From NCBI RefSeq assembly GCF_008727865.1, contig NZ_VTWU01000001.1:558001-622000 (forward strand): a DNA stretch of 64,000 nucleotides. The letters run 5' to 3'. The DNA is from Hymenobacter busanensis. Lineage in GTDB: Bacteria > Bacteroidota > Bacteroidia > Cytophagales > Hymenobacteraceae. Under the pieces are notes generated by a model. The model saw nothing but the letters and a program-made list of their open reading frames with translations, was not told where the DNA came from and ran no database searches. Below are positions 37,324 to 55,444 of this stretch, piece by piece. The position numbers were made by a program, and so were the translations under genes. Numbering within the stretch: position 1 is the first letter of the stretch; each line of letters starts with the position of its first letter.

Positions 37324-39741
37324 CTATTGCAGCAGCACTTCCACGTCGGCGCGGCGGAACTCCGGCGTCACTAGTAGCTGGGTGACTTTGCCGTTCTGCA
37401 CGGTGCATTCGACGGTAGTCTGGTAGGGGGCGTGGAGCTTGAAGTGCACGTCCCAGGCGCGGGGCCAGGCGGGCAGCAGGAGGATTTTCCGGTCGTGGGT
37501 CTGCAGCAGCATTTCCTGCAGCCCGATCATGCCGGAGCCGCCCCAGTTGTGGTCGGGCGCCCAGTCGTAGCCGGGGCCCCAGAAGGCGGGGAAGCGGCGG
37601 CCGGAGTCCTGCAGCTTCTGCACCGTGAGGGCGGCGGCTTCGTCGGTGAGGCCGAGGCAGGCGGCGAAGATGTTGTGCTGCTTCCAGCCGACGTGGGAGC
37701 GGAATTTCTGCACGTCCGGGTCGAAGCGGTAGGTGTTCTGGGCCGTTTCCAGATCCGCCTTGCCGATACCGTACAGGCCCCAGGGAAACACTGGGTACAG
37801 CTGTGGGCTTTCCACGTTGTTGACCCGCTCCCAGCTTTTGGCAGGTGAAATCAGCCGGTGCCCGTCGATTTCGCGGAAGCTCAGGGCCGGAATGCGGCTG
37901 AGCATGGCCGTCCACGCCTTGCGCTGCTGCTCCGAGCCGACTTGCGGCGGCAAAGCCAGCAGGCGGGTCAGCACGGTGCGCAAGCCGGCTACCGTGGCGG
38001 TGGAGTTGTAGGCCATCTTGTACGTCTCGGCGCCCGAGCCGGGGTAGAGCACCAGGTGGCCTTCGCCGTCCAGGACTTTGGCGCCGCGCTGCCGGGCCAG
38101 CTGCTGGTAGTGCTGGTCGAAGAAGGTCAGGCAGCTTTCGATGAAGGGCAGGTAGGGCTGCACGTCCTGGGCCGCGTACTGCTCCGCGTCGAGCATCATC
38201 AGGCAGAATTCCAGCACGGTGTCCCACTCGTATTCCAGCCAGGCGTTGTACTCCAGGCCCCGGTCGAAGCTGGCGGGGCGTTTCCAGTTGTACTCGGCGG
38301 GGTTGGGCAGACCGAAGTTTTCGAGCTGCTCGGTAAAGCAGGCGCCGGGGTGCTGCCAGTAGGTCTGGCTGCGCAGCTCGGCGTTTTTGAGGATGCGCAG
38401 GTAGAAGTCGAACTGCGGTTTGAGCAGCGCCGCGTCGCCGCTTTTCAGCAGGGGCCAGTACACCAGGCGCTGGTTCTGGGCCGTGTGCGTGCCGCCGCCC
38501 CAGTTGCGGAAGTCGGGCGTGAACCGGAGCGTGGAGTCGGTCAGGGCCGGGTCGTAGGTGAACAGGCCGCCGTTGAACTTGGTCGGATACGCGCCGAAAG
38601 CGTTGCAGCCGAGCATATAGCGCATCAGCTGGTAATTGCGGCCGGCCTGCCACTCGGGCCGGTTTTCGGCGGCTTGCGTGGGCTGGACGTGGATGAAGCT
38701 GCGCTGCCAGAACGCCCGCCACCAGGCCAGCGTCTGCTGCCGGGCGGCTTTGGGGTTCTGGCGGGCGGCTTTGAGCGTCTGCTGCAGCTCCTGCTGCCAC
38801 TGCTGCAGGCTGGGCGTGTAGCTGGTATGCAGGGCCAGGGTAAGGGCGTGGCGACGGGCGGCGCGGCGGCTTTTCAGCGCGTAGCCGCGGTAGGGCGTGC
38901 GTTGGTACTGGCCATCGGTGGTGCCGGCCGGCTGCATGTCCTGGCCCGTCAGCGCGCCGCCGAAAACCAGGTTCTGCAGCGGGTTGTAGAGCTGCGGCTT
39001 CACCGCGTCGAGGCCCTGCTGGCGCACGGTCACGTCGAATACCGTTTCGGGGCGGTTCTGGTGGACGAACTCGACCGCGTCGCCCCGGAAGCTAAGGCTG
39101 TCGTGGCGGGTTTTGACCTCGCCCTGCGGCGCCCATTTGTAGGAGTTCTGGTTGTTTTCCTTGCCCTTCAGGATGCGGTCCTGGTGCCGCCAGCTTTCGT
39201 AGCGGGCCTCGGCCTGCAGCGGCTGGTTGCTGCTCACCTCGACGTGGACGACCGGCCGGAATACGTCGACCCAGATATGGACCTGGGCGGTAGTGTTGCC
39301 GTTGGTGCCGGTCAGCGTCACGTCGCCCTGCGGCAGGTTCAGCGTCTGCTGAAAGCTGCCTTGCTCAAACGGGTTCGGGGTGAGGCGCAGGCGGACGCGG
39401 CCGAGCTTGAGCAGGCTGTTGTTTTCGTCGAAGGTGCCGCTGCGGGCGGCGAAGAACAGCACGTCCCCGGCTTCGCTCCACACGTTCAGGCCCAGGTCGC
39501 CGCCACCGCAGGGCATGGATTCGGCGCTGTTGCGGCTCGGGCTGGTCCAGGTGATGTTGTTGGTGGGCAGTTCGGGGCTCTGGGCGGCGGCCGGGAGGCA
39601 GGGGAGTAGCAGCAGGATTGCCCAGGTGCTTTTAGCCCGCCGAGGGCGCAGAAGATTGACGCAGAGGACGCAGAAGCTCAGCGCCTGCAGCGGAAAACCT
39701 CCGCGCCCTCGGCGGGCCAAAAAGTCAGCACGAATCCTCAT
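37324..39741 (-). CDS. DUF5703 / GH95-like six-hairpin glycosidase
   Basis: 805-residue exported enzyme. The mature N-terminus NITWTSPSRNSAESMPCGGG, then DLGLNVW and LGRVRLRLTPNPF are typical of DUF5703, a domain resembling the N-terminus of GH95 fucosidases; the middle has an (alpha/alpha)6 barrel (QLMRYMLGCNAFGAYPTKFN, NNVESPQLYPVFPWGLYG) and the C-terminus a beta domain. A glycosidase on fucose- or galactose-like side sugars is a guess. The leader is unusual: residues ~8-36 derive from repeat I (39635-39718), followed by TWAILLLLPCLPAAAQ. ATG 39741 overlaps the stop of the upstream gene (TAATG), so the two are translationally coupled. Confidence 0.82.
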   Translation of the reverse strand: MRIRADFLARRGRGGFPLQALSFCVLCVNLLRPRRAKSTWAILLLLPCLPAAAQSPELPTNNITWTSPSRNSAESMPCGGGDLGLNVWSEAGDVLFFAARSGTFDENNSLLKLGRVRLRLTPNPFEQGSFQQTLNLPQGDVTLTGTNGNTTAQVHIWVDVFRPVVHVEVSSNQPLQAEARYESWRHQDRILKGKENNQNSYKWAPQGEVKTRHDSLSFRGDAVEFVHQNRPETVFDVTVRQQGLDAVKPQLYNPLQNLVFGGALTGQDMQPAGTTDGQYQRTPYRGYALKSRRAARRHALTLALHTSYTPSLQQWQQELQQTLKAARQNPKAARQQTLAWWRAFWQRSFIHVQPTQAAENRPEWQAGRNYQLMRYMLGCNAFGAYPTKFNGGLFTYDPALTDSTLRFTPDFRNWGGGTHTAQNQRLVYWPLLKSGDAALLKPQFDFYLRILKNAELRSQTYWQHPGACFTEQLENFGLPNPAEYNWKRPASFDRGLEYNAWLEYEWDTVLEFCLMMLDAEQYAAQDVQPYLPFIESCLTFFDQHYQQLARQRGAKVLDGEGHLVLYPGSGAETYKMAYNSTATVAGLRTVLTRLLALPPQVGSEQQRKAWTAMLSRIPALSFREIDGHRLISPAKSWERVNNVESPQLYPVFPWGLYGIGKADLETAQNTYRFDPDVQKFRSHVGWKQHNIFAACLGLTDEAAALTVQKLQDSGRRFPAFWGPGYDWAPDHNWGGSGMIGLQEMLLQTHDRKILLLPAWPRAWDVHFKLHAPYQTTVECTVQNGKVTQLLVTPEFRRADVEVLLQ
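39635..39718. repeat. Repeat family I (inside a signal-peptide coding region)
   Basis: 84-base element with 18-base inverted ends, GCCCGCCGAGGGCGCAGA and TCCGCGCCCTCGGCGGGC (one mismatch), and internal GACGCAGAGGACGCAGA motifs. Similar CTCTGCG/CGCAGAG elements are widespread in bacteria as far as I recall. Translated in frame as part of the DUF5703 leader. Confidence 0.85.
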
Positions 39742-41381: not shown

Positions 41382-43436
41382 TTACCGGCTCACCGGAATC
41401 CACACCTCCATGTCGGCGTGGCCGCGGTTGCCCCAGGCGTAGTAGGGCACCAGCGTCAGCGGCACGGGGGTGGGCTTGCGGGCCGATACCGGGCGGTAGA
41501 GCTGCCCGCCCTGCCACTGCGGCCCGGCGGCCAGCAGGCCCTGGCCGGTCAGGCTCATCACCCGGCTGCCCGCTATGGTCAGGGGCGTGGGCGTGAGCTG
41601 GGCGTCGGCTGGGATGGTGAGGGCCGACAGCGGCTGACCCGCCGGGAAGTCCCTGGTTTCGAGGCAGTACACGATGGGGCCGCGCTTCACGGCCACCTGG
41701 TTGCGGGTTTCCTCCACCAGCGGGTTGGCCTCCACCAGCTGTGCGGGCATGGGCAAGGTCAGCTCCACCTTGTCGCCGGCTTTCCACGGGCGGTTTACTT
41801 CGGCGTAGCTGCCCGGCGTCAGCGCCACCGTCTGGGCTTTGCCGTTGATGAGCACCTTGGCGCCTTCGGCCCAGGCCGGCACGCGCAGAAACACGGAAAA
41901 CGCCGCCTTGGGCGCCTGCTGCACCGTCAGCTGCACCGCGCCGTCCCAGGGGTAATTGGTGGTTTGCCGCAGCTTCACGGCCGCGCCGCTCTTGAGCTTG
42001 GTCGTCAGGTCGTTGGCGCCGTACAGGTTCAGCCACAGGCCCCGGTCCGACACACTGTAGGCGTAGTTGCCCACTTCGGCCACGGTGCGCACCACGTTGG
42101 GCGGGCAGCAGTTGGAGAGGCTGATGTAGTCGACGCGGTCCTTGCTCCAGCGCTGGTGAAAGGGCAGGGCGTCGGAGTAGGCCAGGGGGTTGGTGTAGAG
42201 GAACTTCTTGCCGTCGAGGCTGATGCCGGAGAGGACGCTGTTGTAGAGGGCCGTTTCCATGACGTCGGCGTACTTGGCCTCGCCGGTGAGCTGCAGCATG
42301 CGCCAGTTCCAGAGCACGTTGCCGATGTTGGCGCAGGTTTCGCCGTGGGCCGTGTGGTTGGGCAGCTGGTAGTCGCGGCCGTAGGCCTGGTGGATTTTCT
42401 GCACCGTATCGGGCTTGTAGGCCGTGCCGTCGGGCGAGACGCCGTCGTACAGCGCCCCGCAGGCCCCGGTCACGTACATCTTGCGGCTGGTCACGTCGTC
42501 CCACATCCGGTTCAGCGTGGTCAGCAGCGTGGCGTCGCCGGTTTCGGCGTACACGTCGGCCACCCCGGCGAAGAGGTAGTTGGCGCGTACGGCGTGGCCG
42601 CCGGCCTTCTGCATCTGCCGGAAGGGCAGGCGGTCCTGATTGTCGTCGGTGCCGATGTCGGCGGCCAGCCCGCGGATGTCAATCAGCTTTTGGGCCAGCT
42701 CCAGGTAGCGCGGGTCCTTGGTGGTGCGGTACATTTCTACCACGCCCATGTAGTGCGAGGGGCAGATGGCGTTGCGGGCCAGCTCGGGCGAGGAGCGTTT
42801 GTAAAAGGCGTAGAGGTAATCGGTAGCCTTGCGGGCCAAATCCAGCATCGAGGTCTTGCCGGTGGCGCGGTAGTGCACGCAGGCGGCCGTCATCAGGTGG
42901 CCCAGGTTGTAGCTCTCGAAGTTCAGCCGGTCCTGAAACGCGGTGCTCTTGCCCGTATTGATGGCCGCAATGGTGGCCTGGGTGTTCAGGTAGCCGTCGG
43001 GCCGCTGGCACTTGGCAATGACCTGGATGGCCTCGTCCATCATCTGGTCGAGCTTCGGGTCCTTGGTCTGGGCGTACGTGGCCGCTACCGATTCCATGAG
43101 CTTGTAAAAGTCGCCGTCGTGGAAGGAGGGGCCCATGTGCGTGCCTTTCTCCAGCCCGGCCGCAATTTCAAAGTTGCGGAAGGCGTGGTTGCGCACCGGG
43201 TCGTGGTACAAGGCCCACATGGTCGGAATCATCGATTCGCGGCAGACCTGAAACCGTTCCCCCCAGAAGCCCTGCGGCTGCCACTGCACGCTGCCCAGGT
43301 CCACATTGCTGAGCTTGGCGTGCTTGCTGGCGGAGGTATTGACGAGGCCCTTGTCCTGGGCCGCCACCGGGCGGGCGGCCACGGCCAGGCCGGTGAGCAG
43401 GGCGGCGGTGAGGAGTTTATGGGTGGGGAAATTCAT
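41382..43436 (-). CDS. GH127 beta-L-arabinofuranosidase-type enzyme (DUF1680)
   Basis: 684-residue exported enzyme; GH127 members release beta-L-arabinofuranose with a catalytic cysteine. Signal peptide ends RPVAAQ. The (alpha/alpha)6 barrel shows FWGERFQVCRES, HDGDFYKLMESVA, CQRPDGYLNT, TAHGETCANIGNVLWNWRML (Glu acid/base region) and SLSNCCPPNVVRTVAEVG, with the catalytic Cys in the pair Cys443/Cys444. C-terminal beta domains follow from ~520. Fits arabinan or RG-II side-chain removal. Separated from GH106 by repeat B4. Confidence 0.94.
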   Translation of the reverse strand: MNFPTHKLLTAALLTGLAVAARPVAAQDKGLVNTSASKHAKLSNVDLGSVQWQPQGFWGERFQVCRESMIPTMWALYHDPVRNHAFRNFEIAAGLEKGTHMGPSFHDGDFYKLMESVAATYAQTKDPKLDQMMDEAIQVIAKCQRPDGYLNTQATIAAINTGKSTAFQDRLNFESYNLGHLMTAACVHYRATGKTSMLDLARKATDYLYAFYKRSSPELARNAICPSHYMGVVEMYRTTKDPRYLELAQKLIDIRGLAADIGTDDNQDRLPFRQMQKAGGHAVRANYLFAGVADVYAETGDATLLTTLNRMWDDVTSRKMYVTGACGALYDGVSPDGTAYKPDTVQKIHQAYGRDYQLPNHTAHGETCANIGNVLWNWRMLQLTGEAKYADVMETALYNSVLSGISLDGKKFLYTNPLAYSDALPFHQRWSKDRVDYISLSNCCPPNVVRTVAEVGNYAYSVSDRGLWLNLYGANDLTTKLKSGAAVKLRQTTNYPWDGAVQLTVQQAPKAAFSVFLRVPAWAEGAKVLINGKAQTVALTPGSYAEVNRPWKAGDKVELTLPMPAQLVEANPLVEETRNQVAVKRGPIVYCLETRDFPAGQPLSALTIPADAQLTPTPLTIAGSRVMSLTGQGLLAAGPQWQGGQLYRPVSARKPTPVPLTLVPYYAWGNRGHADMEVWIPVSR

Positions 43437-43564: not shown

Positions 43565-46500
43565 CTATTTGGAGTTCGGTTCAGTAGCCGTGCTGACAAC
43601 CACCGGCCCGAGCAGCCCCGCCGGCAGCAGCGGCCGGGTAGCGGCAGGTGCGGGCGCCGTGGTCAGGCTGGTGCGGCGCTGCTCCGGGGGCAAGGCCGCG
43701 TCGCCGATGAGGCGGTTGGCCCAGGTGTTGGTCACGCGGATGCGCAGCTGATTGTCGCCCTTGCGCACGGCGTCGGTGATGTCGAGGCGATAGGGGGCGG
43801 TCCAGGCCGTGCCGACGGGCTGGCCGTTCAGCTCCACTTCGGCCAGGTTATTTACCTGCCCGAGTTCGAGGTACACGCGCTGGTCGGGCCGTTTCTTGGC
43901 CTTCCAGCGGAAGGACTGCCGGTAGTCGGCGGTGCCGGAGTAGTGGCGGATGGCCGCGTCCGGGTGCTGGCTCCAGTCGGTGAGCTGCACAAACGCCACG
44001 GGCTGGGCCGGACCGCCGGCTTTCGGGTCGAACTGCACCTGCCAGGGGCCGCTGAGCGGCTGGGCGGGCGTGGTCGTCAGCCAGTTCGGACCGTTGTGGG
44101 CGCTGGTCTGCGAAGTCGGCTGGCGCAGCACCACGAACACCGAGCCGCTGGGCTCCAGGCGCAGCGGCAGCCGGGTGCGGCCGTTTTCCGTCTGCCAGTC
44201 CTGCGCGGGCCGGATTTCGCCCGTCACCGCGTCCCACAGCTCCGGCTGCCGCCCGGCCACGCGCAGCGACAGGTCGATGGTCTGCACCGAGTCGAGCTGG
44301 TTGGCAATGAAGTAGATATCGAACTGCTCGGCCGTGCGGTGCGTCCAGGCCAGGCCGCGGGCGCGCTGCCCGTTGGCGTAGTTGGCCGTTACGTCGCGGG
44401 CCAGGCCCAGCGGCTCGAAGGAGTCGGCGGCGTAGGGGCCGCGCAGCACCCGCCCGGAGCCGGCCGGCGCGGGCAGCCCGGTGGCGGCGGCGGTAGCCTG
44501 GGCGGCACCCGCCGCGTAGAGCTGGGCCGTGAGCTGCTGCACCTGCTGGTCGGCCTGCGGATAGCCGCGCAGCTCGGGGCTGCGGCCGGGCTGCCGGCCA
44601 AGCAGCACAGTGGCGCCGGCCTGGGCCAGCTCCCGCAGCTTCCGGGCCACGGCGGGCGTCATGGAGGTGCTGTCGGGCCAGAGCGAGGTGGCGCCGGGCA
44701 CCACCAGCAGACCGTAGCTGGCCCCGCCCGGCAGCTCGATGCGGCCGTCGCGCACCCGGGCCAGGCGCAGCAGCGCGTCGGGGTTAAACGAGTCGTAGGC
44801 GTAGCCGTGCAGCGGGTCGACCAGCATGTCGGCGGTGAAGCTATTGGCCGTGGCCGATACCTTTTCGGGCAGCTCGCGCATCGGGGAGCCCGCGTTGGCC
44901 AGTCGCTTTTTCTCGCTCTGCACCTTCGCCGCGCCCACGATGCCGGGCAGCGTGCGGGTCAGGCGCTCGGGCAGCAGGGCGCGGCGCGGGGTTTCCTCGC
45001 CGTTGAACACCGCCACGTCGACCATCGGGCGGCCGAGCTGCAGCAGCGCCTGGCAGCGGCGTGCGTAGTCGACCCAGGCGCGGCCGGGGCGCCACCAGGT
45101 CTGGTCGCGCTGGAAGTACAGGCCCACGCCGTTGAGCGTCATGCCCGGCTGCCGGTCCAGCCAGGGATTGTGGGCGAAAACGTGGTACACCAGCCGGTTG
45201 ACGCCCAGGGCGTAGTTGCGGTCCTGCACCGCTTTGAGCATGGCCGGGTGTTCGTCCCAGGCCATTTTCAGCTCGGTAAAGGCTTCGGCCTGCACGATGT
45301 TCTTGCCGTAGATATGCGCGCCCGAAATGGCGTCGAGCATGTCGTTGGGCTTGTCGTGGGTGGGGCTGCGCAGCCAGAATTCGCCCATCGGCGCGTCGGC
45401 GTACTGGTAGTGCAGCAGCCCGTCGCTGACCATCGTGGGCGCCACCGCCTCGGCCGAAATAGTGACGCCCTTGGCCCGGGCCTCGGCGGCCAGGGTGGCG
45501 TAGAACTTGTCGCCGATCAGCTCGGCAATGGTCTGGCGCAAATCGAACAGCACCCGCTCCGACACCTCGGCGCTCTGCAGGGGCACGCCGGCCAGCACCG
45601 GCAGGTAGGGCAGCAAATCGTAGCCGCGGCGCTGCCGGAACTCGGCGGCGAAGTTCGCGGACCAGTTCTGGGAGCCGCACTCCCAGCTGTCGATGTGCAG
45701 GGTTTTGAGCACCCGCCCGGCCAGCTCCGGCCCGCCCTGGCGCAGCGCTTCGCCAAACCAGCTGTCGAACTGCAGCTTCACGGCCGCGGGGTTGAACTTG
45801 TCGCACTCCAGGCCCAGGGCCCCGCCGCCGGTGTAGTTGGTGTAGCCGGTGGCGGTGTGGCCCACGCGCAGAATGGTCCAGCGCCCGGCCGGGGGCGTCC
45901 AGTTCAGGCGGCCGTCGGCGCCGAGTTTATCGGTGAGGTTGAGCACCTTTTCCAGCGGCACGCACAAGGAATCGGGCAGCTCCCGGGCAGTGCTGCGCGG
46001 ACTCACGCGCCAGACTTCGCCGTTTTTGCCCTCGTACTGGTTGATGCGCGCTTCCGCTGACAGCCGGATTTCCGACACTTTCAGGGAGGGTTTCCACTTG
46101 GCCGCGTCCAGGTCTTCGCCGCCCGGCTCGGAGCCGGCGGGGTCGTAGCGGAAGCGGAAAAAGCGGGCCGTGGTGGTCGGCAGCGCGTGGGTGACGGCGC
46201 TGCTGTCCTGCCAGCCGCTGCGCGGCGGCGTCAGGCGCGTGACCGGCCAGAAGGTCTGCCCGTCCTGGCTGGCCTCCACGATGAGCCGGTTGGCCTGGTA
46301 GTTATAGCCGTTGGAGCGGATACGCAGGCTGCGGGCGGTAAACGGCTTGTCGAAAGCATATTGCACCCAGCCCGGCTCAGTGAGCTTGAAGCCGTCCTTG
46401 TTGCCGGCCACGGTCAGCCGCTCGGGCTTGCCCTCGGCGGCGCTGCTGGTCACGGTGGGCCTGGTCGTGTACGTCGAAACCCCGCCGCCGGTGGGCGTGG

Positions 46501-47071
46501 GGTAAGCATACACGGCAATGTCGCGGTAGTAGCCTTTCACCGCCGCCGGCTGGGGCAGCTGAATGGTTTGCTTGCGGCCGCCGCTGATGCGCGTTTCGCT
46601 GGAAACCACCTTCTGCATGGCCAGCTCGGGCGTAATCCAGGGCCCACCGGCCAGGGCGAATCCGTCGCTCACGTGCATGGCCAGCTTTAGGCCGAGGCGG
46701 TCGGCCTCGGTCATGGCATGGCGCACCATCTGCCACCAGCGCGGCGAGAGCTGCTGGGCCGGCGGGTCGATGAGCGGCTTGTCGCCCGCGCCGCGAATGG
46801 GCATCAGAAACGCCCCGCCGATGCCGGCTTGCTGCATGGCTTCCAGGTCGGCGGTGAGACCCTCGGGCGTCACCGCCGCGTTCATCCAGTACCAGATAAC
46901 CCAGGGCCGGGCCGCTTCGGGCGGGTTCTGGAAGGCGGCCTGCAGGTCCTTCGCGGTAGTGGCCGCAGTGGCCGGCGCCGACTGTGCCCAGACTGACGCC
47001 GACGGCAGCCAGCTCAGGGCGGGCAGCGTCAGGAGCAGTAGGGACAGGGGAAGGTTGCGCCGGTTTTGCAT
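43565..47071 (-). CDS. Secreted alpha-L-rhamnosidase, GH106
   Basis: 1168-residue exported enzyme of the GH106 type, the family of B. thetaiotaomicron BT0986 acting on RG-II rhamnose. After a signal peptide (SLLLLTLPALSWLPSASVWA) the barrel begins FQNPPEAARPWVIWYWMNAA, then VTPEGLTADLEAMQQAGIGG and AFLMP, the family hallmark. A carbohydrate-binding-like insert follows (~215-330), then DSWECGSQNWSANFAAEF near 470 and AEAVAPTMVSDGLLHY with candidate acids, and a C-terminal jelly-roll sugar-binding domain ending YRLDITDAVRKGDNQLRIRV. Lies between repeats B4 and B5. Confidence 0.93.
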   Translation of the reverse strand: MQNRRNLPLSLLLLTLPALSWLPSASVWAQSAPATAATTAKDLQAAFQNPPEAARPWVIWYWMNAAVTPEGLTADLEAMQQAGIGGAFLMPIRGAGDKPLIDPPAQQLSPRWWQMVRHAMTEADRLGLKLAMHVSDGFALAGGPWITPELAMQKVVSSETRISGGRKQTIQLPQPAAVKGYYRDIAVYAYPTPTGGGVSTYTTRPTVTSSAAEGKPERLTVAGNKDGFKLTEPGWVQYAFDKPFTARSLRIRSNGYNYQANRLIVEASQDGQTFWPVTRLTPPRSGWQDSSAVTHALPTTTARFFRFRYDPAGSEPGGEDLDAAKWKPSLKVSEIRLSAEARINQYEGKNGEVWRVSPRSTARELPDSLCVPLEKVLNLTDKLGADGRLNWTPPAGRWTILRVGHTATGYTNYTGGGALGLECDKFNPAAVKLQFDSWFGEALRQGGPELAGRVLKTLHIDSWECGSQNWSANFAAEFRQRRGYDLLPYLPVLAGVPLQSAEVSERVLFDLRQTIAELIGDKFYATLAAEARAKGVTISAEAVAPTMVSDGLLHYQYADAPMGEFWLRSPTHDKPNDMLDAISGAHIYGKNIVQAEAFTELKMAWDEHPAMLKAVQDRNYALGVNRLVYHVFAHNPWLDRQPGMTLNGVGLYFQRDQTWWRPGRAWVDYARRCQALLQLGRPMVDVAVFNGEETPRRALLPERLTRTLPGIVGAAKVQSEKKRLANAGSPMRELPEKVSATANSFTADMLVDPLHGYAYDSFNPDALLRLARVRDGRIELPGGASYGLLVVPGATSLWPDSTSMTPAVARKLRELAQAGATVLLGRQPGRSPELRGYPQADQQVQQLTAQLYAAGAAQATAAATGLPAPAGSGRVLRGPYAADSFEPLGLARDVTANYANGQRARGLAWTHRTAEQFDIYFIANQLDSVQTIDLSLRVAGRQPELWDAVTGEIRPAQDWQTENGRTRLPLRLEPSGSVFVVLRQPTSQTSAHNGPNWLTTTPAQPLSGPWQVQFDPKAGGPAQPVAFVQLTDWSQHPDAAIRHYSGTADYRQSFRWKAKKRPDQRVYLELGQVNNLAEVELNGQPVGTAWTAPYRLDITDAVRKGDNQLRIRVTNTWANRLIGDAALPPEQRRTSLTTAPAPAATRPLLPAGLLGPVVVSTATEPNSK

Positions 47072-47096: not shown

Positions 47097-47217
47097 GTCA
47101 TGCTGAGCAAAGTCGAAGCATCTCTACCGCTTCGTTGAATAAGAAATTACTATCAGTAGAGATGCTTGCCTACGGCGACCTTCGGTTCGACTGCGCGGAC
47201 ACCAGATCAAGCATGAC
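47097..47217. repeat. Repeat family B, copy B5 (asymmetric)
   Basis: Left arm GTCATGCTGAGCAAAGTCGAA is standard; the right arm carries an extra CTTGCCTACGGCGACC..TTCGGTTCGA stretch before CAAGCATGAC. Shares this variant with B8 and the relic at 4419-4471. Confidence 0.8.
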
Positions 47218-47240: not shown

Positions 47241-48545
47241 TTACACCAGCTTCTTGTTGATGCGGTAGCCGTACTGGCCGAAGAGCAGAATCACCAGGAA
47301 GCAGCCCAGCGGGATGAGGTAGCCGATCTGGATATTGTCGCCGCGCATATCGATGAGCGTGCCCATGAGGTAGGGCAGGATGGCCCCGCCCACGATGGAC
47401 ATGACCAGCCAGGACGAGCCGGGCTTGGTGTCGTCGCCGAGGCCGGCAATGCCCAGGGCGAAGATGGTGGGGAACATGATGCTCATGAAGAAGCCGATGC
47501 CGCCCAGCGCGTAGATGACGTAGGCCCCGTCGCCGAACACGGCCACCGCGCACAAGGCCACGGCCACCACGGCGTAAATCGACAAGAGCCGCTGCGAGGC
47601 CACGTACTTCAGCAGGGCCGTGCCGGCGAAGCGCCCGATCATAAACAGCAGCCCGTACACGGCCAGGTAGTAGCCGGCCGTCTTCTCATCGACGCCGGCG
47701 CCCTGCTTGGCCATGCGGATAAAGAAGCTCGTCACGCAGACCTGCGCCCCGACGTAGAAAAACTGCGCCACCACGGCCCAGGTCAGGTGCCGGTGCTTCA
47801 GCACGGCGAAGAAGCCGCCGCCCTGGGAGGGTTCGGCTTCGGCGGCTTTTACTTCGGGCAGCTTGCTGAAAAAGAACAGCACCGCCACGGCCACCAGCAC
47901 CGCGCCCAGCACCAGGTAGGGCAGCTTCACGGCGGCGGCTTCGTGGTTGAGGTAGGCAATGCGCTCGGCCGTGGGCATGGCCGCCAGCTGGGCCTTGCTG
48001 TACTCCGTGCCCGAAAGAATCATGTTGGCGCCGATAATCGGGGCCACGAACACGGCCAGGCCGTTGAACGAAGCCGCCAGGTTCAGCCGGCTGGTGCTGC
48101 CCTCGGGCGGCCCGAGCACGGCGGCGTAGGGGTTAGCGGCGGTTTCCAGCGTGGTCAGCCCGCAGCCGATGATGAACAGCGCGGTCAGGAACATGCCGTA
48201 GGAGCGGGCATCGGCGGCCGGGATGAACAGGAACGCCCCGCCCGCAAAAGCCAGCAAACCCAGGATGATGGTCGTTTTGTAGCCCAGGCGCTTGAGCAGC
48301 ATCCCAGCCGGAATAGCCATCAGGAAGTAGGCCAGAAACACGGCCGTGTCCACCAGCGTTGACTGCCGGTTATTCAGCTGGCAGGCCTTCTGCAGGTGCG
48401 GAATCAGGATGGAATCCAGGCTGTGCGCCATGCCCCAGAGGAAGAAAACGCCCACCACCAGGATGAACGGGAGCAGGTAGGCGCGGGCGCTGGTGGGGCT
48501 GCCGGTGACTACCGGCGGCGGGGTGGGAGCGGGGGCAAGGGCCAT
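47241..48545 (-). CDS. FucP-type sugar:H+ symporter (MFS)
   Basis: 434-residue inner-membrane MFS transporter from ATG 48545; the open frame continues upstream through repeat B6 but is not plausible protein. About 12 hydrophobic helices. Family signature: LLPFILVVGVFFLWGMAHSL, DSILIPHLQKACQLN, DTAVFLAYFLMAIPAGMLLKRLGYK and LETAANPYAAVLGP, as in L-fucose permease. In Bacteroidota these carry fucose, galactose, glucose or rhamnose-like sugars. Likely imports a monosaccharide released by the enzymes on this strand. Confidence 0.93.
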   Translation of the reverse strand: MALAPAPTPPPVVTGSPTSARAYLLPFILVVGVFFLWGMAHSLDSILIPHLQKACQLNNRQSTLVDTAVFLAYFLMAIPAGMLLKRLGYKTTIILGLLAFAGGAFLFIPAADARSYGMFLTALFIIGCGLTTLETAANPYAAVLGPPEGSTSRLNLAASFNGLAVFVAPIIGANMILSGTEYSKAQLAAMPTAERIAYLNHEAAAVKLPYLVLGAVLVAVAVLFFFSKLPEVKAAEAEPSQGGGFFAVLKHRHLTWAVVAQFFYVGAQVCVTSFFIRMAKQGAGVDEKTAGYYLAVYGLLFMIGRFAGTALLKYVASQRLLSIYAVVAVALCAVAVFGDGAYVIYALGGIGFFMSIMFPTIFALGIAGLGDDTKPGSSWLVMSIVGGAILPYLMGTLIDMRGDNIQIGYLIPLGCFLVILLFGQYGYRINKKLV

Positions 48546-48581: not shown

Positions 48582-48670
48582 GTCATGCTGAGCCTGCCGA
48601 AGCATCTCTACCGCTTCGGTGGATACTACCTGACGAAGCGGTAGAGATGCTTCGGCAGGCTCAGCATGAC
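48582..48670. repeat. Repeat family B, copy B6
   Basis: Near-perfect palindrome with GTCATGCTGAGCCTGCCGAA and TTCGGCAGGCTCAGCATGAC ends and GCATCTCTACCGCTTCG inner arms, between the MaoC and FucP genes. Confidence 0.92.
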
Positions 48671-48682
48671 CGTTTTGGAATG

Positions 48683-49126
48683 CTAAGGCCGCAGCTTCAC
48701 CACCAGCAGATGGTCGCAGGCCAGCACCACTTCGCCAAGCTCGTTGAAGATTTCCACGTGCTCGGTCACCTGGCCGTAGCCCGGCTTCTTGCCCGCGGTT
48801 TTCTCCGAAATCGTGACTTCCGAGCGGATGGTGTTGCCGATGAACACGGGCTTGATGAAGCGCAGCCGGTCGTAGCCCTTGGAAAAGGCTTCGGGGTTGA
48901 TTTCCGAGGCCGTCAGCCCGATGCCGATGCTGAACACCATCGTGCCGTGGGCAATGCGCTGGCCGAAGGGCTGCGTCTTGCACCACTCCGCGTCGAGGTG
49001 GTGGGGGAAAAAGTCGCCCGTGTGCCCGGCGTGGACCACGAAGTCGGTTTCGGTGAGCGTGCGGCCCAGCGTCACGCGCTTGTCGCCGAGGGTGTAGTCT
49101 TCGAAGAAGCTGGATTTGAAGTACAT
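48683..49126 (-). CDS. MaoC-family (R)-hydratase / dehydratase
   Basis: 147-residue hot-dog-fold hydratase, usually adding or removing water across a 2-enoyl-CoA or similar thioester. ATG 49126 is chosen (a GTG/CTG-type extension to 49171 gives a low-complexity leader). The catalytic region [15 protein letters not shown] with [17 protein letters not shown] gives Asp38 and His43 in the MaoC active-site arrangement. With two CoA-transferases encoded upstream on the same strand it may act on a CoA thioester of a sugar-derived acid. 178 bases separate it from the oxidoreductase gene. Confidence 0.9.
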
Positions 49127-49304
49127 AGGAGGTTGAGCCTGGCCCCGGCCACCATTCCCGGGCAGAGGCAAGGTCGGGTAGCCGCCGTGCGTTCAGGTGT
49201 CGCACCGGCGTTGGCTACCGACCTGTTCGTCGTTGTTCCGGGGTGTTCGGGAATGTATTGAGCGGGTAAGATGCGGTAGTAAAGCCGGGCAAGTCTCCTG
49301 CTCT

Positions 49305-50426
49305 CTACCGCTTTTCGCTGGTAATTGCCGCAGAGGCGGAATTAGCTGCGCCAGGGGCGCCGGGCTTCCCGTCACTCGAGGCATAAGCCGCTTCCACCAC
49401 GGCCATGGTCTTGATGACGTCCTCCACGCTGGTGGGCAAGACGTCGATTTCGCCGTTTTTGAACTGCATCAGGCTGCCCATGGTGCCCATAAAGGCATCC
49501 GGAAACCACGAGCCCTCCAGCGCCACGGTGTGCCAGGTCGGGGCTTCACCCTCGCGCAGCAGGCAGTACTCGAACTGGTCGGGCACGCCGTGGGGGTAGT
49601 CCATGAGTAGGCCCATGCGGGTTTTGATGGCGCCCTTGGTGCCTTCCCACTTGATGAAGCTTTCCTGGTTATGCGGCCCGAAGGAGTGGTCGTGGTTGGT
49701 GTTGATGACCGCGTGCAGCGTGTCGCCGTAATCAAACAGGATGGTGGACCGCGACGAGGACAGGGCCTTGGCCGGGTGCCGGAGCGTCTTGGCCATGACG
49801 CGGCTGGGCTCGCCCAGAAAAGAGCGGATCAGGTCGATGTAGTGGATGCTGTGGTACTGGATTTCCAGGCGCGGGTGCACCATCACGTGCGGAAACAGCT
49901 CCCAGGGCGTCTCCAAGGTCACGCGCACTTCCATATCGTACAGCTCACCGATGAGGCCCTGGGCCAGCATGTGGCGGGCGGCGGCCACGTAGGGGGCGAA
50001 GCGCAGCTGGCAGTTGATAGCGGCCACCAGGCGCTTGCGGCGGCAGACCTCCAGGATTTCCTGGCTTTGCCAGAAATAGTCGCCCATGGGTTTCTGAATG
50101 AGCACCCCGGCGCCGTCGGGCAGCTGCTCCAGCGTGGCCACGAACTGCTCGGGCATGATGGTCACGTCGTACACCGCGTCGGCGGGGGCGTGGGCCACGG
50201 CTTCGGCTACCGAGTCGTAGACGTGCGGGATGTTCCACTCGGCGGCCAGCTTTTCGGCCCGGGCGCGGGTGCGGTTGGTGATGCCCACGACCTCGAAACC
50301 GGCCTTGCGGTAGGCCGGCAAATGGGCGTCGCCCACGATGCCGCCGGCGCCGATGATGACGATGGGCAATGGGCGGGCGGGCCGCTGGGGCTGGTAGGGA
50401 ATCGGGGTGCCGGCTATGCTAAACAT
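49305..50426 (-). CDS. Gfo/Idh/MocA-family oxidoreductase
   Basis: 373-residue cytoplasmic NAD(P)-dependent enzyme. Rossmann motif PIVIIGAGGIVGDAHLPAY (about residues 21-39), then VLIQKPMGDYFWQ, where Gln replaces the usual Glu before Lys-Pro, and HSIHYIDLIRSFLGEPSRV for the active-site His region. The first ATG overlaps the stop of the solute-binding-fold gene by 8 bases (ATGTTTAG), so the two are translationally coupled. Likely oxidises a sugar or sugar acid in the same pathway as the CoA-transferases; substrate unknown. Confidence 0.9.
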   Translation of the reverse strand: MFSIAGTPIPYQPQRPARPLPIVIIGAGGIVGDAHLPAYRKAGFEVVGITNRTRARAEKLAAEWNIPHVYDSVAEAVAHAPADAVYDVTIMPEQFVATLEQLPDGAGVLIQKPMGDYFWQSQEILEVCRRKRLVAAINCQLRFAPYVAAARHMLAQGLIGELYDMEVRVTLETPWELFPHVMVHPRLEIQYHSIHYIDLIRSFLGEPSRVMAKTLRHPAKALSSSRSTILFDYGDTLHAVINTNHDHSFGPHNQESFIKWEGTKGAIKTRMGLLMDYPHGVPDQFEYCLLREGEAPTWHTVALEGSWFPDAFMGTMGSLMQFKNGEIDVLPTSVEDVIKTMAVVEAAYASSDGKPGAPGAANSASAAITSEKR

Positions 50427-51675
50427 GATCCAGAGCTTTTTCCAGGGCGTTGATTTTGAGTTGGCCGGCCGCCAGCAGCCCGGCTACCGGCTCATCGGTA
50501 TTAATAGCCCGCAGCACCACCTCGTCGATGACGTGGGCCAGCTGCGCCCAGTTGGCCTTGGCGGGCAGCGTTTCGGCCTGCTCGTGCAGCGCGGCCAGCT
50601 TGTGGTAGTAGGGTACCTGGGCGTTAATGTCGGCGTCGTGCCAGGTCGAGAGCCGGCAGCCGATACCGCCTTCCAGCGTCAGGCGCTTGTCGTTTTCCTC
50701 ACTGAGGGCGAAGCGGATAAAGTCGTAGGCCACGTCCTGATGCCGGCTGCCGGAGCCGATGCCATAGAGCCAGTATACGTTCAGCGAAGCGGAGCGTCCC
50801 TGCGGTCCTGCGCCGCGCGGCACGACGGTAATGTCGACCTGGCCGCGCACCGGGCAGGCCTCGTCCACCTCGCACACGGCCGCGAAGCCAAACCAGTTGA
50901 TCATCAAGGCCGCCTCGCCCCGGGCAAAGGCCTGCCCCGCCCGCACCGACTCGTACTGCATGGACTGCGGGTGAATGGCCGCCGGGTCGCGCAGCAGCTG
51001 GCGGTAGAAGCTCAGGCCCGCCCGCGCCGCTTCGGAGTCAATCTGCACCCGGCCCTGCTCGTCGAGCAGCCGGCCGCCGCGCGTCCAGAGCTGCAGGCAG
51101 AAGTCGAAGACGGTGTTGTGCCCGTCGGGGTAGCCGGCGGCCACGAAGCCGTACAGCTTCTGCTCCGGGCGGTGGAAAAAGCGGGCCACTTCCTGCAGCT
51201 CCGTCCAGGTAGTCGGCGGCTGCAAGGGGCGGCCGTATTGCTGCTGGAAGGCGGCCTGTTCGGCAGGGCTGTCGAACAGGTCCCGGCGGTAAATCAGGCA
51301 TTCCGGGCCGTCGTGGAAGGGCAGGCCCAGCGTCGTCAGGCCGTAGTCCTGCATCCCCAGCAACGAGGGGCTCCAGCCCTGCGGAAAGTCGGCCGGTGAG
51401 TTTTGCCCGATGAGCGGCGCGAGGTCGAGCAGGGCGCCGGCGGCCTGAGCTTCGGGCAGCCAATCGGTGTTGATGTGGGCCACGTCCCAAGCACCGGTTT
51501 CGAGGCCCTTATCGGTCAGCAGGCTCTGGTGCAGCGGGTGCAGGTCCATAGCCACGAACTCAGCGGGCAAGGTGCATCCGGAAAGCGCGCAGTAGGCCGC
51601 CCAGAGCTTCTGCATGTGGGCTTCGAAGGGCGCGAACTTGCGCACCGCCACGCGGAAGGGCTGTTGCTCAGGCAT
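50419..51675 (-). CDS. Leaderless periplasmic-binding-protein-fold protein 1
   Basis: 418-residue protein with the fold pattern of family 1 extracellular solute-binding proteins (MalE/UgpB type): [60 protein letters not shown]. It starts [20 protein letters not shown] with no signal peptide, and the window has no ABC permease or ATPase genes. It is wedged by 8-base overlaps between a CoA-transferase and an oxidoreductase gene, so it is probably a cytoplasmic partner of those enzymes. A second such protein is at 54245-55444. Function not known to me. Confidence 0.82.
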
Positions 51676-52837
51676 CTTGGCGGACGTTGCTGGTCATAAA
51701 TTCCTGCTGCAGGCGGGCATTGTCCTGGCCCAGCTGGGGCGAGCCGACGGGCGAAGTCAGCCGCTCCCCGTCAAGGCGGATGGGGCAGCGGGTGGTCTGG
51801 TACTGGTAGCCATCGGTCATGTGCACGGTCTGCGTCATGTCGAGGCCGCGGAAGCCTTCGTGCTGCAGCAGCTTATCCCAGGTCAGTACATTGGCGCACC
51901 AGATGTCGGCCGGCTCCAGCACGGCCAGCCAGGCTTCGGTCGTGTTGGTGCGCAGGTGCTGGGCCAGCGTGGCCTTGATTTCGTCGCGCTGCTCGAAGGC
52001 TTGTTTCGGGTCGGGGTACGCCAGCAGCGCGGGGCAGCCAAGCAATTCGCCCAGCTTCGGAATCGAGCCCATAGCCAGGGCGAGGTAGCCGTTCTGCGTC
52101 TGGTAGATGCCGTAGGGCGCGCCGAGGTAGGCATGGGCGCTGTTGTGGCGGGTGCGCTGGGGCAGCTGCCCGCCGTCGTTGAAGAAGGTGGTCAGCGTCT
52201 CGAACTGGAAGTCGATGGCCGATTCGAGCATGCTCACCTGCACCAAACCTCCCTCGCCGCGCAGGCTGCGCCGCACCAGGCAGGCCATCAGCCCCTGCGC
52301 CAAATGCGCTCCGGCCAGCATATCCACAATGGACAGGCCCATGGGCACCGGGCCGCTGCCCTCGTTGCCGCTCAGCCAGGTCAGGCCCGAGACGGACTGC
52401 AGCAGCAAGTCCTGACCGGGCTTGTCGCGCCAGGGGCCGTCGGGGCCGTAGCCCGATATTTCGCCGTAAACGACGCTGGGATTTTGCGCCCGCACGCTGG
52501 CGTAGTCGAAGCCCAGGCGCTCCATCACGCCGGGGCGGTAGTTGTGCATCACTACGTCGGCGCGGCGCACCAGTTCCCAGACCTGGGCGCGGTCGGCTTC
52601 GCTTTTGAGGTCGGCGGCGAAGCTTTCTTTGTTGCGGTTGATGGCGTGAAACACCGACGACTCCCCGTTCATGATGACGTTGGAGGTGTACAGGTGGCGG
52701 CAGATGTCGCCGGTTTCGGGCCGCTCGATCTTGATGACCCGCGCCCCGAAATCGGCCAGGCGCAGGCCCGCCGAGGGGCCGGAGAGGAACTGGCTGAAAT
52801 CAACCACTAAATAGTCTTCGAGCGGCTTCATGGGCAA
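51668..52837 (-). CDS. CaiB/BaiF-family CoA-transferase 1
   Basis: 389-residue family III CoA-transferase, moving CoA between carboxylic acids. N-terminus [33 protein letters not shown], then [18 protein letters not shown] and [19 protein letters not shown]; the predicted catalytic Asp172 lies in [14 protein letters not shown]. The stop overlaps the binding-fold gene start by 8 bases (ATGCCTGA). About half the residues match CoA-transferase 2 at 52962-54119 by eye, so the pair arose by duplication and may form a heteromer or act on different acids. Confidence 0.94.
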
Positions 52838-52858
52838 TACTTGCTTTAGAACGTTCTG

Positions 52859-52917
52859 ACGTGGCGCCTCACCCCCCGGCCCCCTCTCCGAAAAGGAGAG
52901 GGGGAGCCAGACGACTT
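52859..52917 (+). repeat. Repeat family A, copy A6
   Basis: GACGTGGCGCCTCACCCCCC, hairpin CCCCTCTCC-GAAAA-GGAGAGGGG, GAGCCAGACGACTTGG. Between the two CoA-transferase genes; supports a ~58-base unit. Confidence 0.92.
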
Positions 52918-52961
52918 GGGTTCGGGGCGGAAGACACGAAGTTTCTTGTCGGTGACTGGAT

Positions 52962-54119
52962 TTAGTGGTTAGCTAGCTGAAATTCCCGGTCGATTTCGGC
53001 CGTGTGCTGGCCGGGGCGCGGGGCGGCCTGGGGTGAGTACAGCTTCCGGCCGTCGATGCGGATGGGGCAGCGGGTGGTGGTGAGCTGCTGGCCATCGGGC
53101 AGCGTCACGTGCTGCTGCATGCCCAGAGCCTGAAAGCCGGGGCTGCTGGTGGCCTGCTGGTAGTTCAGCACCTCGGCGCACCAGATGCCCAGCGGCTCCA
53201 GTGTGGCCAGCCACTCCTGCGTGGGCTTTGCGCGCAGGGCGGCGGTTAGGCGTTCGGCAATGTCGTCGCGGAACTCAAACCAGGAAGCCGGCTCCGGATA
53301 GGCGTCGAGGATGCCGCAGCCGAGCGTCGCGTCGAGCTGGGGCAGGTTGCCCATGGCCAGGGCCAGGTAGCCGTTCTGGGTGGGGTAGATGCCGTAGGGC
53401 GCGCTGAGGTAGGGGTGGGCGGTGCCGCGCACGGCCCCGCGCCGGGGCAGCTGCCCGCCGTCGTTGAAGTGGGTGGTCAGCAGCTCAAACTGCATGTCCA
53501 GCACCGATTCCAGCAGGCTGGCTTCCACCAGCACGCTCCGGCCGGTCTTGCCGCGCTTTAGCAGGCCGGCCAGCAGCCCCTGGGCAAAGTGCGAGCCGCA
53601 GATAATATCGGCCACGGCAATACCGAAGGGCGTAGGGCCATCCTCCCGGGTGCCGCTCAGCCACGTCAGCCCCGACATCGACTGCACCAGCAGATCCTGC
53701 CCCGGCTTGGTGGCCCAGGGGCCGGTCGGGCCGTAGCCCGTCACCACGCCGTAGACGATGCGCGGGTTCAGGGCGCGCACGGAGTCGTAATCGAGGCCGA
53801 TTTTCTCCATGATGCCCGGCCGGAAGTTGTGGGTCAACACGTCGGCCCGGGCCAGCAGCTGCTTCACGCGGGCCAGGTCCTCGGGGTTTTTCAGGTCGGC
53901 CGCGTAGGATTCCTTGTGGCGGTTGATGGTGTGAAACACCAGGCTGGAGCCGTCGACGAACAGGTTTTTGATGGCAATCTGCCGGCCGGCCTCGCCCGCG
54001 CCCGGCCGCTCAATTTTGATGACGCGCGCGCCGAGGTCGGCCAGGCGCAGGCCCGCCGAGGGCGCGGCCAGAAACTGGCTGAACTCGATGACGAGCAGAC
54101 CTTCCAGGGGAAGTGACAT
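52962..54119 (-). CDS. CaiB/BaiF-family CoA-transferase 2
   Basis: 385 residues from ATG 54119 ([20 protein letters not shown]), aligning with the start of CoA-transferase 1; an ATG at 54140, inside the terminus of repeat B7, would add seven residues. Family motifs: [57 protein letters not shown] and predicted catalytic Asp171 in [18 protein letters not shown]. The C-terminal [20 protein letters not shown] matches family III enzymes. Acyl donor and acceptor unknown. Confidence 0.93.
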
Positions 54120-54135
54120 GGATTTGGTTGATCGT

Positions 54136-54224
54136 GTCATGCTGAGCTTGTCGAAGCATCTCTACCGCTTCGTTGAAGTGTGTCTGACGAAGCGGTAGAG
54201 ATGCTTCGACAAGCTCAGCATGAC
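54136..54224. repeat. Repeat family B, copy B7
   Basis: Near-perfect palindrome: GTCATGCTGAGCTTGTCGAA and TTCGACAAGCTCAGCATGAC with inner GCATCTCTACCGCTTCG arms. Sits between binding-fold gene 2 and CoA-transferase 2. Confidence 0.93.
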
Positions 54225-54244
54225 GTTCCTTTAGGTCGTTCTAC

Positions 54245-55444
54245 TTAGCGTTGCGCAGCAGCTTCGGTGACTTGGGCTTCGGCCGCCTGCATCTGCCGTG
54301 ACTCGCGGTAAAGCTGATTCAGCTGTTGCAGCAACGCCCGCTCGTCGCCGCCGTGCATCAGGTACTGGCGCACCGGCTCGCCGGCGTGGTCCTGGAAAAA
54401 CATGTGGCCGTGGTAGCGCGGGCGCAGGAAGGCGCGCTGCAGCGTGGGCAGGGTGGCACGGAAGTAGTCGTGGCTCTGCTGATTCGTATGCGCGTCCTGC
54501 CAGGCGGCGAGGTGGCCGGGCTGGCCCCCGTTGTCGAAGTACAGCGTCTGCTGGCAGCCGGGCGAGGCCACGAACTCAGCGTAGGCAGCGGCCACGTCGA
54601 CGTGCTGACACTTCGCGGAAATAGCCAGGCCGGTGCCGCCGAGGGTGCTGCGCATGGGCGTGCCGCCGGGCTGCAGGCTTACCAGGTCGTGGAAGTGCAG
54701 CAGCTGGCGGGCGTAGCCGCGCCGGGCGTAGTTCGAGTAGCCGTAGGCGAAGGGGCAGTAGGCCAGGGAGTCGGTCTGCGTCATGGCCTCGTACACCTGG
54801 ATGGGGTTGCGCTGGAAGCAGGCCGCATCGACCTTGCTGGCCAGCTCGCGGAACATCTGCAGCGCCTGTACGCCCACGGCTTCGCTCACCACTTCGTCCT
54901 CGCGCTGGCAGGGGTCTTCGCCCAGCGAGCAGCAGAACATGTAGAAGCTCATCAGCGTGTCGATGGGAATCAGCGCGAAGGCCACCAAGCCGCGGTCGGC
55001 CAGCTGCAGCAGCTCGTCAAACGTCTGCGGAACGGCTAAACCGTGCTTCGCCAGCAGATCGGGGCGGCTGGCGGCTACGGGCGTGGCCGCGTCGATGGGC
55101 AGGGCCCACTGGTGGCCGCTGAAGCTGTAGCTTTCGTAGGAGTGGCCTACCGTGTTGGCCTCCTGATCGGCCAGGAAGGCAGCGGGCAGGTGCTCGTCGA
55201 GCGGCAGAATGGAGCCGGTGCGGGCGGCGAAACCGGCCCAGGGGTGGTCGATGACCAGCAGATCAAACCGCTCGGCCAGCTGCTGAATGGACTCGTCGGC
55301 AAACTGCTGCAGGCTGCGCTTTTCCCAGGTGATGCTCACGTTCGGGTGCAGCTCCGAGAAGCGCTGCGCGGTTGCGGCCATCGGCACGAAGCCGCGGCTG
55401 TGGTTCCAGGTAATGCCTTTCAGGTGAATGTGTTCGGCGGACAT
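54245..55444 (-). CDS. Leaderless periplasmic-binding-protein-fold protein 2
   Basis: 399-residue relative of extracellular solute-binding proteins with no signal peptide: starts MSAEHIHLKGITWNHSRGFV, then MAATAQRFSELHPNVSITWE and RFDLLVIDHPWAGFA, a conserved lead motif I recall from proteins encoded next to CaiB/BaiF CoA-transferases in other phyla (memory, not checked). Later GHQWALPIDAATPVAASRPD and a Pro/Gly-rich ligand-site region. Not close to protein 1 in sequence. First gene of the CoA-transferase cluster; no ABC transporter parts nearby. A cytoplasmic role is inferred from the missing leader. Confidence 0.8.
   Translation of the reverse strand: MSAEHIHLKGITWNHSRGFVPMAATAQRFSELHPNVSITWEKRSLQQFADESIQQLAERFDLLVIDHPWAGFAARTGSILPLDEHLPAAFLADQEANTVGHSYESYSFSGHQWALPIDAATPVAASRPDLLAKHGLAVPQTFDELLQLADRGLVAFALIPIDTLMSFYMFCCSLGEDPCQREDEVVSEAVGVQALQMFRELASKVDAACFQRNPIQVYEAMTQTDSLAYCPFAYGYSNYARRGYARQLLHFHDLVSLQPGGTPMRSTLGGTGLAISAKCQHVDVAAAYAEFVASPGCQQTLYFDNGGQPGHLAAWQDAHTNQQSHDYFRATLPTLQRAFLRPRYHGHMFFQDHAGEPVRQYLMHGGDERALLQQLNQLYRESRQMQAAEAQVTEAAAQR

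Follow-up and report, generated by a model that had tools for sequence, protein, structure and literature searches.

Two proteins that look like transporter receptors kept inside the cell

Why would a bacterium encode two proteins with the fold of transporter receptors, without export signals, in the midst of enzymes for coenzyme A (CoA) chemistry? The question is raised by a gene block in a 64,000-nucleotide stretch of the 4.9 Mb Hymenobacter busanensis genome (contig NZ_VTWU01000001.1, positions 558,001 to 622,000), hereafter the window, in whose numbering positions are given; all genes of the window located below lie on its minus strand. A first-pass annotation had placed six genes at 48683-55444, and we found every one of them there, followed by a seventh that it had missed. 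In order, the block encodes a solute-binding protein (SBP1), two CoA-transferases (CoA_A and CoA_B), a second solute-binding protein (SBP2), a Gfo/Idh/MocA dehydrogenase, a MaoC-type hydratase and a FucP-type symporter. Eight-base overlaps join CoA_B to SBP2 and SBP2 to Gfo, each start lying on the preceding stop. Pfam and NCBIfam assign these genes at family level, and FucP alone passes an NCBIfam equivalog cut-off. The reading we favour, tentatively and with a little less than even confidence, is that the block carries out a cytosolic, CoA-dependent dehydration of a 6-deoxy-L-hexonate, as a CaiB/CaiD-like branch of 6-deoxy-L-hexose oxidation, with 2-O-methyl-L-fuconate as the first candidate.

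By fold, SBP1 (54245..55444, 399 amino acids; PF01547/PF13416) and SBP2 (50419..51675, 418 amino acids; PF01547) are family-1 binding proteins of ATP-binding cassette (ABC) transporters. In Foldseek, the AlphaFold (AF2) model of SBP1 (pLDDT 92.8) matched ABC sugar receptors over its whole length, with TM-scores of 0.80 to SmoF and 0.72-0.77 to MalE3, and that of SBP2 (pLDDT 93.2) matched MalE3 best, again over the whole length (0.83). The earlier claim that both lack signal peptides held up: a hydrophobicity scan of 74 SBP1 and 74 SBP2 copies revealed no hydrophobic leader from any in-frame upstream start, and a signal peptide reached through a better start was rejected for that reason. The median upstream room to an in-frame stop is 8 codons for SBP1 and 10 for SBP2. 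Over all in-frame starts, the top 12-residue hydrophobicity within the first 40 residues was 1.49 for SBP1 and 1.22 for SBP2, compared with 1.75-2.83 (first 60 residues) for seven window hydrolases taken as secreted, on a crude measure by which the cytosolic Gfo scores 2.43 and CoA_A 1.79.

The absence of a matching ABC permease, also noted earlier, applies to the genome as a whole. Five of its six PF00528 permease domains exceed the Pfam cut-off and the sixth falls short of it; none of the six is of the carbohydrate (MalFG-like) type, and their best NCBIfam matches, all sub-cut-off, are to Opp/Dpp/Nik types, an OsmF/ProW fusion and, weakly, SsuC. On this ground we rejected an ABC transporter elsewhere in the genome as the user of SBP1 and SBP2. 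Sugar ABC systems do lie near the block in Croceibacterium and Halostagnicola, each with a further solute-binding protein of its own. Taken together, the two block proteins look like transporter binding proteins kept inside the cell: they share the whole-chain fold of SmoF and MalE3 (TM about 0.7-0.8), but have neither signal peptide nor own-genome permease and are encoded with CoA enzymes.

In the reading we favour, SBP1 would serve the CoA-transferases as a binding partner. Alternatively, SBP1 and SBP2 could be cytosolic sugar sensors or scaffolds with a regulatory role in the pathway and no catalytic one. A leaderless, MalE-like protein would be well placed to act as a sensor in the cytosol, and genes for IclR-type regulators are found close to the block in some ten divergent loci (in L079 by NCBIfam, in the others by eye or annotation). 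However, we saw no fused output domain, a separate IclR regulator is often present, among 77 SBP1 copies 46 positions with polar residues or Tyr/Trp/Cys reach 97% conservation or more, which is high for a sensor, and SBP1 tracks the CoA-transferases; we consider a purely regulatory role improbable. To the same degree we doubt an enzymatic role for the two proteins, in which they would act as lyases or dehydratases on the sugar acid, either ahead of CoA transfer or following it. Enzymes with a periplasmic-binding-protein fold exist, PheC and MqnA among them, and many charged residues are invariant (e.g., H15, R17, R43, D61, D66, D118, R341 and R343 in SBP1; D64, H121, E125, D184, H186, R199 and R341 in SBP2), but the nearest folds are those of sugar receptors.

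Conservation of the block

The recurrence of the six genes as a set, supposed in the first-pass annotation, was borne out. An SBP2 scan of named genomes gave 64 loci, the closest of them from Hymenobacter, and co-occurrence was counted over 86 stretches, some of them short contigs and two of them from genome G286. All six genes are present in 66 of these stretches and SBP1 in 78, with a same-strand CoA-transferase within 900 bp of SBP1 in 76 of the 78. Nearly every Hymenobacter and Pedobacter copy that no contig end interrupts has FucP and the six genes in collinear order; the symporter accompanies SBP1 in 59/78 loci and is part of the co-conserved block. In our sample of 395 Bacteroidota genomes, own genome included, 19 carry SBP1, and all 19 also have two such CoA-transferases. 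Relatives of the block span several phyla and one archaeon: outside Bacteroidota the complete six-gene set occurs in Croceibacterium, and partial sets occur in Chloroflexi and Granulicella metagenome-assembled genomes (MAGs) and in the haloarchaeon Halostagnicola. Planctomycete contigs L070 and L072 hold only SBP2, and Sinorhizobium only the CoA-transferase/SBP1 pair.

On pSymB of Sinorhizobium meliloti (L086:7838-10125) this lone pair lies near traA and an IS21 element. In G286, SBP1 is found about 60 kb from the CoA-transferases and stands alone by an IclR gene and a rhamnose isomerase/kinase/aldolase-like operon (L131:2977-11991; labels by eye).

Proposed CoA-ester chemistry

CoA_A (52962..54140; PF02515, 306.7 bits) and CoA_B (51668..52837; PF02515, 328.6 bits) are family III CaiB/BaiF CoA-transferases with 57% identity to each other, and CoA transfer is the activity expected from their sequences. 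The catalytic-type aspartate is present in every copy compared (Asp178 in 71/71 for CoA_A, Asp172 in 77/77 for CoA_B). Likewise, the MaoC-type enoyl-CoA hydratase (48683..49129, open reading frame (ORF) to 49171; PF01575) has an Asp-x4-His dyad, with Asp39 in 70/70 and His44 in 69/70 copies, and the Gfo/Idh/MocA dehydrogenase (49305..50426; PF01408, PF22725, PF02894) has Lys112/His195/Asp198 in 76/76, some copies in these counts deriving from one and the same genome. We take these residues, and the Asp-x4-His motif, to have the catalytic roles usual in their families. The MaoC start at 49129 was chosen from orthologs, which begin at MYFKS; the first ATG of CoA_A sits at the edge of a dispersed repeat, and its real start may be 54119.

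These intact residues favour the first-pass proposal of CoA activation coupled to hydration or dehydration, and so do stretches L134 and L135. There a crotonase-type hydratase and an aldehyde dehydrogenase adjoin SBP1-CoA_A-CoA_B (L134 by NCBIfam/Pfam, L135 by eye), and the 20 kb of each stretch contain no MaoC and no Gfo. The presence of a non-homologous crotonase in the MaoC slot argues for true acyl-CoA hydration or dehydration. The haloarchaeal cluster, in addition, includes an AMP-binding protein.

In the CaiB/CaiD system of carnitine metabolism, a family-III CoA-transferase and an enoyl-CoA hydratase perform hydration or dehydration at the level of the CoA ester, with CoA recycled between product and substrate. 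The block resembles this system in its pairing of CoA-transferase with hydratase. It differs in substrate class, in having two CoA-transferase paralogs and SBP-fold partners, and in using mostly MaoC (crotonase in L134 and L135); its CoA-transferases score 68.8 and 59.5 bits against the CaiB equivalog model, whose cut-off is 413.

Fucose-type partners and no adjoining dehydratase

The last gene of the block (about 47241..48500, start approximate) encodes a FucP-type sugar:H+ symporter (TIGR00885, 369.7 bits; cut-off 280.4). In genus g15, genes for a fucose-dehydrogenase-type short-chain dehydrogenase/reductase (SDR), a fuconolactonase-like amidohydrolase and a Zn-dehydrogenase adjoin the block in 8 of 9 carriers, and a diketo-acid hydrolase type (FAH) is also beside it in 7 of those 8. 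The L-fucose dehydrogenase of L128 scored 353.9 bits (cut-off 300); the lactonase (267.4 of 400 bits) and the diketo-hydrolase (367.6 of 500 bits) remained below their NCBIfam cut-offs. In the own genome a fucose-type SDR, a lactonase, an FAH and a second SDR lie apart from the block, on contig C7, and the 20 kb stretch of G154 has none of these partner genes. The partner genes and the FucP/RhaT symporters point to a neutral 6-deoxy-L-hexose that is oxidised to an acid in the cell. The acidic pectin sugar of the first-pass annotation is thus only partly supported, since nothing here requires an acid to be what is imported; aceric acid, discussed below, keeps its place as a candidate.

This gene set resembles the non-phosphorylating L-fucose/L-rhamnose diketo-hydrolase pathway in its L-fucose dehydrogenase, fuconolactonase-like and diketo-hydrolase-like members. 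In contrast to that pathway, the block is adjoined by no sugar-acid dehydratase and has CoA enzymes instead: among the g15 carriers we found no UxaA-type, IlvD/EDD or enolase-superfamily match beside it. Fucose-type partners without an adjoining dehydratase suggest that the CoA block stands at the dehydratase's place.

Elsewhere in the genomes the picture is mixed. Five of the nine g15 carriers (G025, G170, G222, G316 and G324) have a separate cluster that pairs FAH with a UxaA-type dehydratase; four of these five clusters also hold a mutarotase-like gene and a fucose-type dehydrogenase, and four of the five genomes retain a second FAH beside the block. The sole UxaA-type gene of G021 and of G343 sits among galacturonate-type genes (labels by eye), as does the single copy of the own genome (neighbours by eye), and G202 has one UxaA-type gene. 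IlvD/EDD is absent from the own genome and from G072, present in two copies in 5 of 22 genomes and in one copy in the other 15; without it, the usual route of branched-chain amino acid synthesis looks unlikely in the own genome. Enolase-superfamily matches occur in all 19 carriers because the family also includes MenC, enolase and epimerases, and 8 of the 19, own genome included, have none above 111 bits, five weaker ones looking like MenC or epimerase by eye.

These observations bear on a simpler alternative, namely that the block is another route for unmodified L-rhamnose/L-fucose or L-galactose in which the CoA unit replaces a UxaA-, IlvD- or enolase-type dehydratase. We judge it unlikely, if the most credible of the rivals. 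A RhaT-type symporter lies near the block in L130 (profile-tested), in L132, L133, L055, L080, L081 and L085 (by eye) and in Rufibacter and Persicobacter (annotation), and Halostagnicola has an annotated L-rhamnose mutarotase, to which a small gene of L133 is similar by eye, with no NCBIfam match. RhaA is absent from all 19 carriers, own genome included (RhaI-type isomerases were not searched), and alpha-L-fucosidases are annotated near the block in Halostagnicola, Croceibacterium and Persicobacter. However, the five g15 genomes named above own a separate L-fucose-type cluster with its dehydratase, the rhamnose isomerase/kinase/aldolase-like operon of G286 adjoins SBP1 (by eye), and an unmodified substrate leaves the GH139 co-occurrence described below unexplained.

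An RG-II setting and the candidate sugar

On its gene content the window is a locus for degradation of rhamnogalacturonan II (RG-II). It encodes a GH139-type protein, a 5mqo-type GH127, a 5mqm-type GH106, an apiosidase and a BT_1020-like protein, together with a protein carrying a GH141 insertion domain and two rhamnosidase-type proteins. The GH139 member (37324..39741), a DUF5703 protein of the 2-O-methyl-alpha-L-fucosidase type, scores 973.5 bits to 9hyq and 324 to 9hmb, the two GH139 structures of PMC12282258. We infer that 9hyq is BT0984, which the accessible part of PMC12282258 shows to be a 2-O-methyl-alpha-L-fucosidase, a second tested family member having no detectable activity.

GH139 was found in 15/19 SBP1-positive compared with 7/376 SBP1-negative genomes (Fisher P-value 1e-18, which overstates independence since the carriers share ancestry), after five genomes with weak PF18961 matches, all <30 bits, had been dropped (G126, G300, G013, G034 and G389). 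Furthermore, 8 of 11 further genomes from the 64 loci have a DUF5703/GH139 match (in two partial pieces in L070, split in L072 and L081). The gene directly follows MaoC in the Chloroflexi MAG L079 and lies one small ORF before SBP1 in L089 (Rufibacter). In 12 of the 14 genomes with both on one contig, 14-40 kb separate GH139 from the block; in the other two the distance is 70 and 104 kb. As judged from these gene associations, 2-O-methyl-L-fucose from RG-II leads as the candidate substrate, ahead of aceric acid.

Aceric acid (3-C-carboxy-5-deoxy-L-xylose) would take CoA on its own carboxylate, and its degradation by the block is a rather unlikely alternative. Just downstream of FucP and of the GH106 alpha-L-rhamnosidase family member (43565..47071; PF17132, 1222.8 bits to 5mqm, its closest solved relative) lies the GH127 gene (41382..43436), whose product is closest to 5mqo (862.9 bits, next 423.3). 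This structure, deposited as a non-reducing end beta-L-arabinofuranosidase, we take to be BT1003. The accessible text of PMC10850190 and PMC5698469 gives BT1003 of GH127 as an aceric acid hydrolase. Aceric acid remains a candidate because a GH127 of this type lies near most RG-II copies of the block, a relative being found within 10 kb in 48/64 loci. Yet no GH127 relative was detected in the L079, L089 and L077 stretches, the one in L080 is just 26% identical, the fucose-type SDR, lactonase and diketo-hydrolase partners have no clear part in aceric acid use, and a haloarchaeon is unlikely to encounter this sugar.

Three other acids had been proposed with it. Hydrolases that could free 3-deoxy-D-lyxo-heptulosaric acid (Dha; BT_1020-like) and unsaturated uronates (GH88) are encoded in the window, and a GH88 relative adjoins the block in L128, L136 and L137. 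However, no catabolic gene for Dha, for uronates or for 3-deoxy-D-manno-octulosonic acid (Kdo) was noted beside the block, in a search that was not systematic.

A further RG-II sugar is D-apiose, and an apiosidase is encoded in the window. We regard it as very improbable that the block serves apiose catabolism by feeding a RuBisCO-like protein (RLP) and an OiaK-type kinase. An RLP at least 71% identical to the query occurs in 7/395 genomes, all 7 among the 19 carriers (81 genomes with only a 26-30% identical match were dropped), and the L121 pair has OiaX (507.7 bits) and OiaK (429.4 bits) as best NCBIfam matches, both under the cut-off of 700. However, the RLP is absent from 12/19 carriers, own genome included (E 1e-30), for which reason we rejected it as a core member; in 4 of the 7 its distance from the block is 61-102 kb, and apiose chemistry is not known to need CoA. 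Shared use of RG-II, to which apiose also belongs, is the simplest cause of the link between RLP and SBP1.

In the same seven genomes, all SBP1 carriers, the RLP is part of a module (L121-L127) with an OiaK-like kinase, an Asp/Glu-racemase-like protein and an SBF-type membrane protein, the families being tested on L121; in L080:15580-20295 the RLP and kinase genes are accompanied instead by an MFS gene and a racemase-like one. The nearest known pathway for this module is that of D-apiose, to which the racemase-like member makes no contribution that we are aware of.

A proposed route and the evidence against it

In the CaiB/CaiD-like reading, the sugar would be taken up through the symporter FucP at this locus, and through RhaT or an ABC system at others, and be converted to the aldonate by a dehydrogenase, either Gfo or the L-fucose-dehydrogenase-type SDR, and a lactonase. 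The two CoA-transferases would place CoA on the aldonate carboxylate, SBP1 being the fixed partner that holds the sugar acid, and MaoC would remove water across C2-C3 at the CoA-ester level. The next substrate would then receive the CoA, and a dehydrogenase and the diketo-acid hydrolase would take over the 2-keto-3-deoxy acid. The likeliest reason for such a detour is a substrate beyond ordinary sugar-acid dehydratases, above all RG-II 2-O-methyl-L-fucose, whose 2-O-methyl group would prevent the usual dehydratases from yielding a keto acid. Here an enol ether would result from elimination, and water added back at C2 could free methanol. Spelled out in full, this amounts to a non-oxidative O-demethylation, which in such detail we think possible but doubtful: cytosolic MalE-fold subunits, as stable partners of the CoA-transferases, would bind 2-O-methyl-L-fuconate, the paired CoA-transferase and MaoC would form 2-methoxy-enoyl-CoA, and C2 rehydration would expel methanol to give 2-keto-3-deoxy-L-fuconate.

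Beyond the shared ancestry of the carriers, a number of results weigh against this reading. GH139 is absent from 4/19 carriers (G107, G154, G214 and G286) and was not found in 3 of the 11 further genomes (L055, L071 and L080); within 10 kb of the block it is the rarest of three hydrolases (11/64 loci, GH106 55/64, GH127 as above); and since RG-II markers travel together, GH139 alone picks out no single sugar. SBP2 is lacking in 8/78 SBP1 loci, and we know of no activity for any block protein. A UxaA-type gene exists somewhere in every carrier except G107, a second IlvD/EDD in 5 carriers, and enolase-superfamily matches above 120 bits, elsewhere than the block, in 11/19; with possible dehydratases thus present in many carriers, the gap is one of gene arrangement, and absence of the activity is unproven. 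Finally, the GH139-positive g15 genome G206 retains the usual arrangement of FucP, Gfo and fucose-type genes, with SBP1 absent genome-wide and CoA_A, CoA_B, SBP2 and MaoC absent from the locus, and no dehydratase was seen there either. The CoA block is accordingly not strictly needed for the fucose-type gene set, and absence of the five genes as a unit fits both an extra unit for a modified substrate and a decayed locus.

Relation to known systems

The component families of the block are known; their combination, in which two leaderless receptors are a constant feature next to CoA-transferases, did not appear among the matches listed in our literature search, where no title described the gene set or its chemistry. 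The accessible text of PMC9007349 has nothing on either, and that of PMC12168206 nothing on catabolism. Nor did any title among the matches listed concern intracellular bacterial use of the odd RG-II sugars 2-O-methyl-L-fucose and aceric acid, subscription papers lying outside the search. The nearest parallel for a sugar acid as CoA ester is deoxyribonate use by Klebsiella michiganensis, for which a CoA thioester has been proposed and whose cluster likewise holds a CoA-transferase; it differs in having a CoA-synthetase, a hydroxyacyl-CoA dehydrogenase and a thiolase, no SBP or MaoC being named in the accessible part of the report (PMC6365646). Another polysaccharide-derived sugar, 6-O-methyl-D-galactose, loses its O-methyl group through an oxidative P450 demethylation that releases formaldehyde (PMC10033563), whereas the route proposed for the block would be non-oxidative and release methanol. 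The block is a defined gene set for testing intracellular use of RG-II sugars and, if our reading is true, would make family-1 binding proteins members of a cytosolic pathway and give an instance of CoA-ester chemistry acting on sugar acids.

In G107 (L135:15926-19810), about 5 kb past SBP1-CoA_A-CoA_B, there is a set of genes for a cytochrome P450 (Pfam), a ferredoxin, a ferredoxin reductase and a Zn-dehydrogenase (by eye), which resembles the marine sugar O-demethylation set.

Repeats within the block

A dispersed repeat, GAAGCGGTAGAGATGCTTCG, occurs within 21748-63003 in 10 copies with at most 2 mismatches, compared with none in 100 shuffles. Copies lie, for example, at 54152-54208, 48598-48654 and 47114-47133, and several form inverted pairs, two of them within the operon. 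Dispersed repeats occupy the gaps 5' of CoA_A, 5' of CoA_B, and both 5' and 3' of FucP. A second, G+C-rich palindromic repeat has three copies (14496, 28017 and 52880), one of which lies in the CoA_A/CoA_B gap.

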